DNA of 57,676 nucleotides from an uncultured Synechococcus sp. Its GTDB lineage: Bacteria > Cyanobacteriota > Cyanobacteriia > PCC-6307 > Cyanobiaceae. Both the position numbers and the translations under genes were made by a program. Under the pieces are notes generated by a model. It was not told where the DNA came from. It saw nothing but the letters and a program-made list of their open reading frames with translations, and did not search any database. Positions 47,049 to 55,200 of the stretch are shown one piece after another; positions within the stretch are counted from its first letter, which is position 1, and the number at the start of each line of letters is the position of its first letter. The stretch spans positions 1 through 57,676 of the forward strand of contig CAJWZW010000004.1 in assembly GCA_913050565.1 (NCBI GenBank), read 5' to 3'.

Positions 47049-48094
47049 CCACCTGTCTTCTGCCGGTCACCGGTTCACAGACCGCCGGTGATGAAGCCCT
47101 CGGGGAGGGGCGTTGGGTCAAATTGATCTGTGGGGCCAGTAATCAGGATTTGGCTGCGGTTGCAGACCTTTGTGCCCTGTATGCCGTGGCCGGCGTTCAG
47201 TGTGTCGACGTGGCAGCCGACGCCGCTGTCGTCAATGCTGCTCGCACCGGTCTCAGCTGGGCCCGGGAACGCACTGGTCACTCCCCCTGGTTGATGGTCA
47301 GCGTCAGCGATGGACGTGATGCCCATTTTCGTAAGGCTGTCTTTGACCCGTCCCGTTGCCCACCTGATTGCGCGCGCCCCTGCGAGAGGGTCTGCCCGGC
47401 TGATGCCATTCATGCCGGTCCTGGTGTCGACCCCAACCGTTGCTACGGCTGTGGGCGCTGTTTGCCGGCCTGCCCCCTTGGCCTGATTGAAACCTCCGAT
47501 CACCGAGTGGGGCTCGACAACCTCGCCCTTCTGCTGGCCGAGCTCCAACCCGATGCGATTGAGGTTCATACCGCACCTGGGCGTGAGCAGGACTTTGATC
47601 GCACGCTTGAGCAGGTTGCAGCTGCCTCGATTCCTCTGCGCAGGCTGGCGGTCAGCTGCGGTCTTGAGGGGCATGGTCTTCGCTCCGAAGATCTGGTCAC
47701 GGAGCTGTGGGGTCGCCATGAGGCCCTGCGCAAGCATGGTTTTCGACCTCTCTGGCAGCTGGATGGACGTCCGATGAGCGGCGATGTCGGTGCAGGCACG
47801 GCCCGTGCGGCACTGCGGCTCTGGCAGCAGGTGCGGACCAGCGCACCTCCGGGGCCGTTGCAGCTGGCGGGAGGCACCAATGGCGCGACGATTGGTTTGC
47901 TGGACGGCCTGGGGCTGCCGCGTTCCAGTGGTCCTGCAGGCGTCGCCTTTGGTGGCATGGCCCGTTCGATCGTGCAACCTCTTCTGCAGGAGGCGGAATG
48001 CCGCCGGACCACCCTGCGTGACTGGCCCTTCGGCTGGGAGCAGGCCCTGGCGCTGGCCCGTGATCTTGTCATCCCCTGGCTTTCACGCCCCTGA
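47045..48094 (+). CDS. ldpA: LdpA-like Fe-S protein (circadian input-type, 4Fe-4S motifs)
   Basis: Two ferredoxin-like Cys clusters ([32 protein letters not shown]); extended N-terminus ...[14 protein letters not shown]; start uncertain (CTG 47045 or TTG 47123). Confidence 0.78.
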
Positions 48095-48163: not shown

Positions 48164-49798
48164 ATGAGTACCGAGCGCATCACCGATGATCTGCAGCGGC
48201 TGCTCGCGTTGTTGCCCACCGCAGTTCAGGAAGCTCTTGCATCCGCTGAACGTCGTGATCAGCTGCTTGAGGTCGTGCTCGATCTCGGTCGGATTCCGGA
48301 AGCGCGCTATCCAGGTCGCTCGGTTGAACTTGGTGGCCGCTGCCTGGAGCGCAACGATCTCGAAGAGATGGTGAGCAGGATCGGCCAGTTCGGTGCTGAT
48401 AATCGTGCCGGCATCGAGCGAACACTCCATCGCATCAGCGCCGTCCGTAATCGCAGCGGTGATGTGGTCGGCCTCACCTGTCGCGTTGGACGCGCCGTTT
48501 TCGGAACAGTCGCCATCGTTCGTGATCTGCTCGACAGCGGTGAGTCACTGCTGCTGATGGGACGCCCCGGTGTGGGCAAGACCACAGCTCTTAGGGAAAT
48601 TGCCCGTGTGTTGGCCGATGATCTGCACAAGCGGGTCGTTGTGATCGACACCAGCAATGAAATCGCTGGTGATGGAGACATTCCACATCCTGCAATCGGT
48701 CGTGCCAGGCGCATGCAGGTGGCCAGGCCCGAACTTCAGCACCAGGTGATGATCGAGGCGGTTGAAAATCACATGCCCGAAGTCATCGTGATCGATGAGA
48801 TCGGCACTGAGCTGGAAGCTCAGGCGGCACGCACGATCGCCGAGAGGGGAGTGATGCTTGTGGCCACCGCCCACGGCAATGCACTCGCCAATCTGATCAA
48901 GAATCCGACACTGTGCGATCTGGTGGGGGGGATTGAGTCCGTCACCCTTGGCGACGATGAGGCACGCCGGCGCCGAACGCAGAAAACGGTTCTGGAGCGT
49001 GCTGCTGAACCCACCTTCCCGCTCGCTGTGGAGATGCACAGCCGCCATCGCTGGGCAGTTCACGACGATGTCGGGCGCACGGTGGATCTGTTGCTGCGTG
49101 GACAAAGCCCCAGGCCTCAGCAGCGCGAACTGATGGCGGACGGCGGCGTCAGGCTTGTCGACCCAGAGCCTTCAACGCCGCAGCCTCCTCAGCGGCGGCC
49201 TGCCCTGGCCGTTGTTCCTTTGCCCGATCCCAGGCGTTCCGTTCCCAGGGACGATGCTCCCGAAAAGTCCGCCGTTGATGAGTCACCGCGTGAGCTGAAG
49301 CTGCAGGTGCTCTGTTGTGGACTCAGTCAGCAGCGACTCGAAGAAGCTGTCCGCTGCCATGGTTGGCCTGTCAGTGCTGTTGACGATCTGGCGTGTGCGG
49401 ATGTGCTGCTGAGCGTGCGTCGAGGGTTAGGACGCCAGCCCGAGCTTCGCCGACAGGCAAGGGAGGCCGGGGTACCGATTCTTGTGATCAAGTCGGATTC
49501 TCTGGCCCAGGTGGAGCGAGCTCTTGAGCGACTGCTCAACCGCCAGCCTCTGCCCAGACAAGACCAGGAGTCTGAGAGGTCATTCGTTCATCCGGATCGA
49601 GGCGATGCCTTGGCGGCTCTCGAGGAATGCCGTCTTGCAGTCGAGCAGATTGTGATGCCGCAGGGGCGTCCGGTTGAACTTCTACCTCGCAACGAGAACG
49701 TTCTTCAGATGCAGGCAGATCTTGTGGCGCGTTACAGCCTTCAGAGCGATGTCTATGGATCCAGTGATCAGCGCCGGCTCAGGGTCTTCCCGCCATGA
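48164..49798 (+). CDS. Ycf45-like AAA ATPase with C-terminal R3H-like domain
   Basis: Walker A LLLMGRPGVGKTTALREIARVL, SpoIIIAA-like core, C-terminal RPVELLPRNENVLQMQADLVARYSLQSDVYG. Confidence 0.87.
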   Translation: MSTERITDDLQRLLALLPTAVQEALASAERRDQLLEVVLDLGRIPEARYPGRSVELGGRCLERNDLEEMVSRIGQFGADNRAGIERTLHRISAVRNRSGDVVGLTCRVGRAVFGTVAIVRDLLDSGESLLLMGRPGVGKTTALREIARVLADDLHKRVVVIDTSNEIAGDGDIPHPAIGRARRMQVARPELQHQVMIEAVENHMPEVIVIDEIGTELEAQAARTIAERGVMLVATAHGNALANLIKNPTLCDLVGGIESVTLGDDEARRRRTQKTVLERAAEPTFPLAVEMHSRHRWAVHDDVGRTVDLLLRGQSPRPQQRELMADGGVRLVDPEPSTPQPPQRRPALAVVPLPDPRRSVPRDDAPEKSAVDESPRELKLQVLCCGLSQQRLEEAVRCHGWPVSAVDDLACADVLLSVRRGLGRQPELRRQAREAGVPILVIKSDSLAQVERALERLLNRQPLPRQDQESERSFVHPDRGDALAALEECRLAVEQIVMPQGRPVELLPRNENVLQMQADLVARYSLQSDVYGSSDQRRLRVFPP

Positions 49799-50908: not shown

Positions 50909-52051
50909 ATGCCAGCCGACGTGAAAGCCTCCCAGTCCTCCGGCGGAGATGTCCGCCCCGGTGAGCGCGATAAAGCGCTCAATCTCGTGCTCGGTCAGAT
51001 CGAGCGCAACTTCGGCAAGGGTTCGATCATGCGTCTCGGGGACGCATCCAGGATGAGGGTGGAAACCATTTCCACTGGAGCTCTCACCCTTGATCTCGCC
51101 CTCGGTGGTGGGTATCCCAAGGGACGAGTCGTTGAGGTCTACGGGCCCGAAAGTTCCGGTAAGACCACGTTGACCTTGCATGCCATCGCCGAGGTTCAGC
51201 GCAATGGAGGCGTCGCGGCCTTTGTTGATGCCGAGCATGCACTCGACCCGGTTTATGCCGCATCGCTGGGAGTGGATGTGGAAAACCTGCTGGTTTCTCA
51301 GCCGGACACCGGCGAGATGGCGCTGGAAATCGTGGACCAGTTGGTCCGCTCTGCGGCTGTCGACATCGTGGTGGTTGACTCTGTCGCCGCTCTGACGCCC
51401 CGTGCTGAGATCGAAGGTGAGATGGGCGACCTTGCCGTGGGCAGTCAGGCCCGTCTGATGAGCCAGGCGATGCGCAAGATCACAGGCAATATCGGCAAGT
51501 CCGGTTGCACGGTGATTTTCCTCAACCAACTGCGTCTCAAGATTGGTGTCACCTACGGCAACCCAGAAACCACCACCGGTGGTAACGCTCTCAAGTTTTA
51601 CGCCTCGGTGCGTCTTGATATCCGCCGTATTCAGACGCTCAAGCGCGGTACTGAGGAATATGGCATCCGCGCCAAGGTGAAGGTGGCCAAAAACAAAGTG
51701 GCTCCTCCCTTCCGCATCGCGGAATTCGACATCCTCTTTGGTCGTGGGATCAGCACGCTGGGTTGTCTGCTTGATCTGGCGGAGGAGACGGGTGTCGTGA
51801 CTCGCAAGGGTGCCTGGTACAGCTATGAGGGCGACAACATCGGTCAGGGTCGTGACAACACCATTGGTTGGCTGGAGCAAAATTCGGAGGCCAAGGATGC
51901 CATTGAGGTTTTGGTGCGTCAGAAGCTGACGGAGGGTTCGGAAGTCACGTCCAACTCCATGCGTCCTCTTGCTGCTGCGGCACGCTCGGCTGCTGCCAAG
52001 CCTCTCGCCAAGTCCGCTGAGGTTGCTGCGCCGTCGAAGGACGCAGCCTGA
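50909..52051 (+). CDS. recA: Recombinase A
   Basis: [10 protein letters not shown]...[20 protein letters not shown]...[32 protein letters not shown]. Confidence 0.99.
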
Positions 52052-52396
52052 TTAGCCCTGCTTGAGCTGTGAGGAGCTGCATTCGCTGCGGCTTCTCTGC
52101 AGGTTCCCTGTGATGCGCTGAAGTTCCTGAATGGCTTCAGCGCCTTCGAATTTCACCAGTTCGCGGCCGTTGCGGGATTCGACCCAGCTGATGCCGAAGT
52201 CAGAGACCAGAAAGCGCACCATATGTTGCTCGCCAAGCTCGGCCATAAATGAGGCTCCACTTCCGTGCTGGCCGTCATCGCAGACGTAGCAGGTTGCTGT
52301 GATGCCCTGTTTGCTGAGATTTGTCGCCAGAGCCTGAAGGCTCATGACCAGATCTTGGACGACCGAGCGGTACTGCTCGGCAAGTCGGAGGAACAC
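52052..52396 (-). CDS. DUF1815 family protein (probable GTG start)
   Basis: VFLRLAEQYRSVVQDLVMSLQALATNLSKQGITATCYVCDDG. Confidence 0.75.
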   Translation of the reverse strand: MFLRLAEQYRSVVQDLVMSLQALATNLSKQGITATCYVCDDGQHGSGASFMAELGEQHMVRFLVSDFGISWVESRNGRELVKFEGAEAIQELQRITGNLQRSRSECSSSQLKQG

Positions 52397-52471
52397 GCAG
52401 AACACCACCCAGGTGCATATGAGCCTAAAGGTTTTCTTCCGAATTCAGGGCTGAGGTGAGCTTTCGCGGTT

Positions 52472-52711
52472 TTATGGGCTGTCGGCAAGTGTCCAGAATC
52501 CGGCGGCAGGCCCGATGAAGCGCACCACCACCCAGAACAGCACCAGGGCTGCGATGCCGATCCAGGCGCCTCGTGTGGTGATGGACACGAATTGCGTGGC
52601 CTGCGCTCGAGTCAGCGGTAACCAGGCGATAAATCGCTCAGCGTCCTTGGGATCGGGCTTGCTCTGGCGAGGTGGCAGTCCCTGACTGGCACGGCGTCGT
52701 GCTTCTCCCAT
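52472..52711 (-). CDS. DUF2839 family small membrane protein
   Basis: MGEARRRASQGLPPRQSKPDPKDAERFIAWLPLTRAQATQFVSITTRGAWIGIAALVLFWVVVRFIGPAAGFW. Confidence 0.75.
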   Translation of the reverse strand: MGEARRRASQGLPPRQSKPDPKDAERFIAWLPLTRAQATQFVSITTRGAWIGIAALVLFWVVVRFIGPAAGFWTLADSP

Positions 52712-52751
52712 CTCAGGCCTCACAAGCTGTTGGTCAGCCTAGAAGTGAATG

Positions 52752-54194
52752 TCAGTCTGGCCGAAGTCTCTGCAACGAGTCCCAGGGTTCCAGCGCACGC
52801 AGCACCTGCTCTCCCCAGCTGCGTCCTCGGACCCGTCCGTCAAGGATGGCCAGCCGACCACCGCTGCGTCTGAGCGAGGCAATAGCAGGGATCAAAATGG
52901 CCAGTGCTTCGGGGAGCAGAAGCGTGCGAAACCAATCACGCCTCTGGCGCTTCAGCAACTCCACACGGGCTGCGGTCAGAGGGTCCTCCAGGCTGGCGAT
53001 CGGCAGCATGGCTGCAATCAGCTGTTCCGGGTCCGGAAGCAGATGCTGATGACTCAACCACCAGTTCCAGCTGCAGCAGATCACTCCGTTTGACTCCGGT
53101 GCGGTGCTTTCCAACGTGACCCTGCTGCCGAATTCCGCTGCAAGCTCGCTGCAGAGACGCTGACGCATGCAGGGCGCATCCACCAGGACTGCGGTTAATC
53201 CCGTTCGGCCAAGGATCAGGCGTCGGCTCTGCTCCAGAAGATGGCCGGCGAAAATTTCAGTGTTTGGCAGTGGCTGACGCCTCGGCAGATAGATCGGCAA
53301 TGGCTCTCCACGCGGTGCATCGCGTAGATCGATTCGCAGCTCATCGCTGTCGATGCTCGGCTCTTCGCCATGACGTCGACAGCCTCCATCTGCGTGGATC
53401 AATGTCCAGGGATGCTTCAGGAAGAGCGATTCCAGCGTGATCAGTGGTTCAAGCGGTTGCAACTGCCAGCTCCACTGCAGGGTGTTCGAATCCACGCGAG
53501 CCCAGCTGGCCCAAGATGACCTGTCCATGGACATCAGCTGGCACCAGGGTTCTGGTGTTGAACCCAGCAGCTGCAGAAGATCGCGAACCCGGGTCAGAGC
53601 GCTCTCGGGCATGGCGAGGTCGCGGTTCGTTCCGCCACCAAGGGCGACAAGCTGGCGGCTCAGGCGTTCATGCAGATCCAGCAAACCCTCTCCTGCGGAG
53701 GGAAATGCTGCTCGCAGTTCCTCCCAGTGACAGGATTCGATGTTCACGGTCATGGCCCGTCGCAGACGGTCTTGAAGCCACTCCGCCTCGGGAACAACAA
53801 GATGATCGTCAGGACGGAGCTGTCCGCGGCGATGGACATCCAGAAGCTGTTGGGGTGTCAACAGCCAGATCTGGTCTCCAGGCGGGGGATCAAAGCCTGT
53901 CCAGCATCCCAGCTTTAATCCGCTCTCCAGCAGACGCGGCCGTTCAACATGCAGCAACCGCTGGTGTTGAGTCGGGTCGAGAACCAGCACGGTGTGATTG
54001 CTGCGCAGGCTGAGCGGCACCAGCAGGGCTAGCCACCAACGGTCGCTGCTGCCCGCAGACAGCTGGATTCTGGTTCGATCCTGGCGTCGCAGACTTCGGC
54101 CTACCAGGCGACTCAGGGTCAGTTGGTGCTCCCATTGGCCCGCTTCTCCCCGAAGCAGGTGCTTGAGCTGCTGATGGGCCTGGACTTCCAGCAT
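52752..54194 (-). CDS. DinG/Rad3-like helicase-related protein with degenerate catalytic motifs
   Basis: C-terminus DWFRTLLLPEALAILIPAIASLRRSGGRLAILDGRVRGRSWGEQVLRAL resembles DinG helicase C-domain; no Walker A, DEAH or QxxGR found. Confidence 0.6.
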   Translation of the reverse strand: MLEVQAHQQLKHLLRGEAGQWEHQLTLSRLVGRSLRRQDRTRIQLSAGSSDRWWLALLVPLSLRSNHTVLVLDPTQHQRLLHVERPRLLESGLKLGCWTGFDPPPGDQIWLLTPQQLLDVHRRGQLRPDDHLVVPEAEWLQDRLRRAMTVNIESCHWEELRAAFPSAGEGLLDLHERLSRQLVALGGGTNRDLAMPESALTRVRDLLQLLGSTPEPWCQLMSMDRSSWASWARVDSNTLQWSWQLQPLEPLITLESLFLKHPWTLIHADGGCRRHGEEPSIDSDELRIDLRDAPRGEPLPIYLPRRQPLPNTEIFAGHLLEQSRRLILGRTGLTAVLVDAPCMRQRLCSELAAEFGSRVTLESTAPESNGVICCSWNWWLSHQHLLPDPEQLIAAMLPIASLEDPLTAARVELLKRQRRDWFRTLLLPEALAILIPAIASLRRSGGRLAILDGRVRGRSWGEQVLRALEPWDSLQRLRPD

Positions 54195-54270: not shown

Positions 54271-55200
54271 ATGGGCTGGATGTGGACAGCAGTGATGGAT
54301 CAGGAGCGGATCGCAGAACTCGCTGGTGTCAGCAGGGTCGGTGTTGTGGGTCTTGGCCTGATCGGTGGCTCGATCGGGCTGGATCTGCGTGCTCTTGGGG
54401 TGAGCGTTCAGGGCCTCGTGCATCGCGACAGCACAGCGGAGCGTGCCCTTCAGCGCGGGCTTGTCGATACTGTCAGCTGCGACCCTGCCTGCCTCGCGGG
54501 ATGTGATCTTGTCGTGCTGGCATTGCCGCTCGAGGCCTTGCTGCAGCCGCAAGATGCGCTGCTTCAAGCCCTGCCGTCTGAGGCCGTCGTCACGGATGTG
54601 GGGTCGGTGAAGGGAGCCGTCCTCGATGTCTGGAGAGATCGCCATCCCCGCTTCGTGGCGTCTCACCCCATGGCAGGGACTGCGGAGTCAGGGGTGGACT
54701 CCGGTTGCCGTGGTCTGTTCAGAGGACGCGCCTGGGTTGGAACTCCAGAGGCTGAGACAGATCCCGAAGCTCTGACGCAGGTGAGAGCTTTGGCTTGCTC
54801 GCTCGGTGCGCACTGGATCAGTGCGGATCCGTTCATTCATGACCAGGCCGTTGCCCTGATCTCCCATCTGCCCGTGATGGTGAGCGCAGCACTGCTGCGC
54901 GTGCTCGGGGAGGAGCGAGACCCACGCGTGCGCGATCTTGCGCGTCAATTGGCGTCCAGTGGTTTCGCGGATACAACGCGGGTTGGTGGCGGCAATCCAG
55001 CGCTGGGAACGGCAATGGCTTGCCGCAATACCTCTGCATTGCTGAAGTCTCTTGCCGCCTATCGATGGAGCCTCGAACAGCTTGAAGAGGCAATCCTCAA
55101 CGGCCATTGGGCTCAATTGGAGCAGGAGTTGGAAAAGACTCGCGCCTTGCGTCCAGGGTTTCTGGAGCCCCCTTCTGATCCAGTTAGCCCGCAAGCCTGA
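54271..55200 (+). CDS. tyrA: Prephenate/arogenate dehydrogenase
   Basis: VGVVGLGLIGGSIGLDLRALGVSVQGLVHRD...HPMAGTAESG; start may be 54295. Confidence 0.9.
   Translation: MGWMWTAVMDQERIAELAGVSRVGVVGLGLIGGSIGLDLRALGVSVQGLVHRDSTAERALQRGLVDTVSCDPACLAGCDLVVLALPLEALLQPQDALLQALPSEAVVTDVGSVKGAVLDVWRDRHPRFVASHPMAGTAESGVDSGCRGLFRGRAWVGTPEAETDPEALTQVRALACSLGAHWISADPFIHDQAVALISHLPVMVSAALLRVLGEERDPRVRDLARQLASSGFADTTRVGGGNPALGTAMACRNTSALLKSLAAYRWSLEQLEEAILNGHWAQLEQELEKTRALRPGFLEPPSDPVSPQA

Follow-up and report, generated by a model that had tools for sequence, protein, structure and literature searches.

The window, a 57,676-nucleotide stretch of DNA from an uncultured Synechococcus sp., encodes a 480-residue protein that is predicted to adopt the fold of a DinG/XPD helicase but has lost every motif of the ATPase motor. 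Since the ATP-burning parts are absent yet nearly all cyanobacteria keep the gene, it must serve something other than DNA unwinding. The gene is an uninterrupted reading frame with an ATG start on the minus strand, a strand left unstated in the original prediction, and its position, together with those of the retained and lost motifs and of the neighbouring genes, is given in Table 1.

Table 1. Features of the sDinG locus, with positions numbered from the first letter of the window.
Feature	Position	Strand	Evidence
sDinG-type pseudohelicase gene, 480 aa	52752..54194	-	ORF; NCBIfam DinG/YoaA; AlphaFold2 and Foldseek; orthologues
Lost Walker A (motif I), residues 44-54 QLSAGSSDRWW, W53 at the Lys position	54033..54065	-	Alignment with 19 intact homologues; EcDinG K60 corresponds to W53
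Lost motif II (DEAH), residues 133-140 VVPEAEWL	53775..53798	-	Alignment
Retained P motif of HD2, residues 397-405 LPIASLEDP	52980..53006	-	Aligned to EcDinG 614-AFPPID-619
Retained D-W-F, residues 420-422; F422 equivalent to EcDinG F638	52929..52937	-	Alignment conservation
Lost motif VI (arginine finger), residues 434-443 LIPAIASLRR	52866..52895	-	Alignment
DUF2839 small protein, 28 nt downstream of the sDinG gene	52472..52723	-	Pfam PF10999, E 5.3e-28
DUF1815 small protein, third co-directional cluster gene in many cyanobacteria	52052..52408	-	Pfam PF08844, E 1.5e-47; neighbourhood scan
recA, convergent with the sDinG cluster	50909..52051	+	Pfam RecA, E 4e-132; neighbourhood scan
tyrA (prephenate dehydrogenase), divergent, upstream of the sDinG gene	54271..55200	+	Pfam PDH_N

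Searched alone, the window protein matched the NCBIfam models for DinG (E = 1e-8) and YoaA (E = 2.5e-7) over its C-terminal part, the region in which a DinG/XPD pattern had first been recognised, while Pfam returned only a Helicase_C_2 match under the cut-off. The same NCBIfam YoaA and DinG models matched all 24 of 24 diverse cyanobacterial members, with a best E-value of 4.6e-32. A phmmer search of the PDB with the single window sequence gave chance matches such as Terfa, whereas the family profile instead found E. coli DinG (6fwr) at 5.6e-10, and profile–profile alignment with an intact DinG (hhalign) gave a probability of 98.2% and an E-value of 2.8e-14 over 366 columns. AlphaFold2 models of the window protein (pLDDT 87.3, pTM 0.83) and of a second family member, from family f23 (pLDDT 91.8), show two RecA-like lobes with a helical arch insert, for which the nearest solved folds are DinG and XPD. 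With the first model, Foldseek ranked DinG at the top (6fwr and 6fws; E = 5.9e-18 for 6fwr), followed by CasDinG and XPD; the second matched DinG 6fws at 1.2e-21. At the level of profiles and models, a DinG/XPD helicase fold and a relationship beyond chance are confirmed. The original prediction, which had read the protein as DinG-like, is borne out by NCBIfam, hhalign and AlphaFold2/Foldseek alike, and structure prediction returned the SF2 fold.

The catalytic motifs were located by alignment with 19 intact DinG and YoaA proteins, a reference set that comprised relatives outside the class but within the phylum, the DinG copies carried by Gloeobacter-like genomes and by genome G054, and the E. 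coli proteins DinG and YoaA. All three motif sites proposed earlier (LSAGSSDRWW for Walker A, PEAE for DEAH and the IPAIASLRR stretch for QxxGRxxR) proved correctly placed. The Walker A lysine is present in 19/19 intact proteins and in 0/82 family members, in which the position holds W (38), Y (32), H (11) or S (1), an aromatic W, Y or H having replaced the lysine in 81; the 82 include many near-related picocyanobacteria, and these counts are not numbers of independent events. The DEAH site of the window protein is P135-E-A-E138 in the alignment, and traces of motif II are seen in the Gloeobacter-like orthologues (DGAH, DCAH and DRAH). All 82 members have P, S or some other residue in place of the first arginine of QxxGRxxR, and the SAT motif is also absent from the 480-residue protein. 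The loss of three motifs that had been claimed therefore stands, and is larger than first thought: the iron–sulphur domain, overlooked at the time, is gone too. The four-cysteine 4Fe-4S domain of active YoaA and DinG is wholly absent from the family, whose aligned members are gapped across this segment. Relocation of the motifs elsewhere in the protein was ruled out by a pattern search of the members, which found neither [AG]x4GK[ST] (0/82) nor QxxGRxxR (0/82), and by a column check, which showed that the stray DE or SAT strings of a few members lie in other alignment columns and not at the motif sites; no family member has intact motifs aligned elsewhere. Because the Fe-S domain and every ATPase motif are lost, normal ATP binding and translocation are not expected of the protein. 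The systematic rather than random replacement of the lysine would suit an altered enzyme, in which a remodelled P-loop pocket (R-W-W or Y-R replacing G-K-S/T) serves another ligand or chemistry, but the length and sequence of the loop vary between clades, the mean conservation of HD1 is low and candidate catalytic residues were not seen, making this reading improbable.

Proteins of this kind have been described, if only barely. According to the review of Cheng (2025), short-type DinG (sDinG) comprises MD1, Arch and MD2 only, has no Fe-S or pseudo-Fe-S domain, lacks the ATP-binding residues and is described from the Nostocales, Chroococcidiopsidales and Pleurocapsales, no study of its function being reported (PMC11981726). 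The window protein has the same MD1-Arch-MD2 order, no Fe-S domain, no ATP-binding residues, a compact arch, a cyanobacterial origin and a doubtful ATPase, and because this architecture is the same we file it, on sequence and model, as a picocyanobacterial member of sDinG. Full-length members are also present in 3/3 genomes of family f23, which we take to be Nostocaceae. Where sDinG is reported to have an additional helix (a3a, between b1 and a3 of the ATP site; PMC11981726), both AlphaFold2 models here show coil, with a low pLDDT (about 67) at this point in the second model. Compared with E. coli DinG (6fwr/6fws), the fold, the domain order, the position of the HD2 P motif and F638 are common to the window protein, but the ATPase motifs and the Fe-S domain are missing and the arch is shorter. 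A similar comparison holds for YoaA, the HolC-binding XPD/Rad3 helicase of E. coli, which possesses Walker A, DEAH, an Fe-S domain and a C-terminus that binds HolC (PMC8378479): the lobe order and the P motif position are shared and the NCBIfam YoaA model recognises the family, but the catalytic parts are all absent from the window protein.

The original prediction had looked to picocyanobacterial orthologues for absence of the motifs across the clade; the family in which the Walker lysine is missing throughout extends far beyond them, across the class. Orthologues were found in 91 of the 98 sampled Cyanobacteriia genomes (about 93%), including streamlined genomes of Prochlorococcus size (about 1.7 Mb), and the gene is kept in genomes of 1.6-1.9 Mb from the window's own family that are probably Prochlorococcus. 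The seven genomes without it are all from family f24 (G057, G206, G216, G235, G243, G250 and G256), in which 7/7 lack the sDinG gene and DUF2839 is kept. A separate DinG-like match was detected in only six of the 98, five of them from families f14 and f50, called Gloeobacter-like here for their genome size and tree position, and the sixth being G054; those copies that were read have an intact Walker A, and the copy in G223 is a 587-residue fragment at a contig end. Gloeobacter-like genomes thus hold an intact DinG beside the dead protein, while most other Cyanobacteriia hold only the dead one, which is the only DinG-type protein detected in most cyanobacteria. DinG is not mentioned in a survey of DNA repair genes in cyanobacteria from 2016 (PMC5101192).

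In a maximum-likelihood tree, the bootstrap of which was not fully settled, all 40 dead members used are set apart by a branch that has 100/100 support, and the branch joining this clade to the Gloeobacter-like intact DinG proteins has support of only 82/32. Because the dead members fall together at the 100/100 branch, one old inactivation would suffice for the whole dead clade, and a single origin of the family from a DinG/YoaA-type helicase is the simplest account. Phage origin was rejected, as nothing matched among 50,697 phage records, and so were plasmid relatives, for which the search returned five weak matches (21-26% identity over about half of the query), four of them annotated as ATP-dependent helicases. 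Two genomes of Prochlorococcus size (1.6-1.7 Mb; loci L090 and L115) carry very divergent sDinG copies that are close relatives of each other, and the L090 protein sits on a terminal branch of length 2.0 and carries a net charge of +15 against the near-neutral values of the others. Within the window's own assembly (G000), contig C4, from which the window comes, and contig C1 (L003) each carry a recA-DUF1815-DUF2839-sDinG-tyrA-crtO locus, with recA 91% and sDinG 54% identical between the two. Contig C4 groups with the single-cell genomes AG-673-A03, AG-673-F03 and AG-679-A04 (95-96% for sDinG) and C1 with the genus. With the same locus present in two diverged copies, G000 is probably a mixed bin.

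Compared with four close relatives, the window gene has a Nei–Gojobori dN/dS of 0.06-0.14, which resembles the values for the neighbouring tyrA and crtO genes (0.04-0.17), with recA lower at 0.01-0.03; ten other close pairs within the family gave 0.04-0.18, and 30 alignment columns are invariant in 46 members. Purifying selection on the gene is supported by these sequence comparisons. A degraded relic retained by chance would account for the missing catalytic motifs, but it is at odds with the low dN/dS, with the invariant columns, with presence in 91 of 98 genomes, streamlined ones among them, and with a single old inactivation after which the reading frames diversified while staying intact, and we give this explanation virtually no credence. 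On the low dN/dS and the survival in streamlined genomes, decay is in practice excluded. The earlier view that motif loss reflects selection and not decay is accordingly upheld, and applies to a loss that spans the class.

The sDinG gene is separated from recA by two small genes, DUF2839 and DUF1815, as had been noted at the outset, along with the suggestion that the protein may be a DNA- or RecA-binding scaffold. The gene is indeed near recA in the picocyanobacterial family f1, but recA lies there on the opposite strand; because the two are convergent they are not co-transcribed. Outside f1, recA was found near the sDinG gene in 0/24 loci (L037-L061; flanks of about 5 kb, shorter where a contig ended), and a recA link beyond the picocyanobacteria was rejected on this neighbourhood scan. 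With no other tie between the two, a RecA scaffold is very unlikely. The DNA-binding half of that proposal may yet hold, the ssDNA features of HD2 being kept. Further upstream of recA lie genes for a ferredoxin-domain protein, which we take to resemble LdpA, and for what is presumably a SpoIIIAA/R3H-type ATPase (47123-48094 and 48164-49798); both are near recA in related loci too. On the other side, tyrA is the divergent neighbour in a minority of non-picocyanobacterial loci. A promoter and terminator scan was uninformative, its scores being at shuffle levels.

The small genes are better partner candidates than RecA. DUF2839 is encoded downstream on the same strand in 47/90 genomes from 15/29 families, with match-to-match distances of 44-310 nt, and outside f1 the linkage is seen in 39/82. 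It was not found in families f14, f50, f4, f6 and f17. Since these five are unlinked and f24 has DUF2839 without an sDinG gene, the linkage is widely kept but not obligatory. DUF2839 itself is present in 97/98 Cyanobacteriia genomes, and its single hydrophobic stretch near the C-terminus suggests a membrane protein. The literature searched gave passing mentions only of DUF1815 and DUF2839, with no function.

HD2 of E. coli DinG is contacted by 7/11 of the bound bases; key contacts come from the P motif (614-619) and from F615/F638, with F638 stacking on an ssDNA sugar and Y636 intercalating (PMC6300356). For Nostoc sDinG, AF3 placed ssDNA only on MD2 (PMC11981726). Several of the corresponding positions are kept in the dead family: Phe occupies the place of F638 (F422) in 82/82 members, the preceding W421 is found in 82/82 and D420 in 81/82, and the prolines of the P motif are present in 82/82 (P398) and 81/82 (P405). 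Mean column conservation is 0.64 in HD2 and 0.69 in the N-terminal segment, compared with 0.43-0.49 in HD1 and the arch. The N-terminal segment, which differs from that of intact relatives, has a very conserved E3-H7-W21-H23-R29-R33 set, of which E3, H7, W21 and R29 are essentially invariant.

Our best guess, held with a confidence slightly short of even, is that sDinG is a non-translocating pseudohelicase that binds ssDNA. With both RecA-like lobes and the compact arch kept and the motor lost, it would be a passive binder, in which HD2 grips single-stranded nucleic acid without ATP and the remaining regions, the conserved N-terminal segment among them, form a docking platform for a partner, DUF2839 being a candidate. 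Gripping by HD2 would be the likeliest mechanism since HD2 is the better conserved of the two lobes and has retained both the P motif and the Phe that stacks on the sugar. Against such a grip, the position of Y636 is occupied by Asp, as in most intact relatives, and that of F615 mostly by Ile or Leu; the residues conserved in HD2 may have a purely structural role; and the net charge of the family proteins, which is about neutral, is not that of an obvious nucleic-acid binder. The unlinked families, and the persistence of DUF2839 in f24, weigh against the proposed partner. They also weigh against a pure protein adaptor, in which the RecA-like lobes offer only a docking surface, perhaps with DUF2839 at the membrane, and no nucleic acid is bound. 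Loss of every ATP site and of the Fe-S domain, an N-terminal segment that is among the most conserved parts and unlike that of intact relatives, and the same-strand DUF2839 linkage would all suit an adaptor of this type, for which the retained P motif and D-W-F are not obviously needed; we regard it as possible, though rather unlikely. Extending the ssDNA-binding reading, cyanobacteria may early on have swapped DinG/YoaA for a motor-less version, now the only DinG/XPD-family protein in most of them, that acts with DUF2839 as a fixed clamp on ssDNA or R-loops, a scenario that we offer as speculative and hold to be doubtful.

RecC and the N-terminal part of AddB are inactivated SF1 helicases, in which the helicase fold has likewise been kept for a non-motor role after loss of the ATPase. 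Both are subunits of known complexes, whereas the window protein is of the SF2/XPD type. The sDinG kind itself was already known; new here are its near-universal range in the Cyanobacteriia, compared with the three orders reported before (PMC11981726), the systematic replacement of the Walker lysine by an aromatic residue, the finding that Gloeobacter-like genomes have an intact DinG as well, the estimates of selection and the linkage to DUF2839. Cyanobacteria do much of Earth's photosynthesis, and a motor-stripped helicase fold kept in about 93% of those sampled marks a conserved, unstudied function. For XPD-family biology, sDinG is a natural control that points to the parts of the fold worth keeping without ATP.
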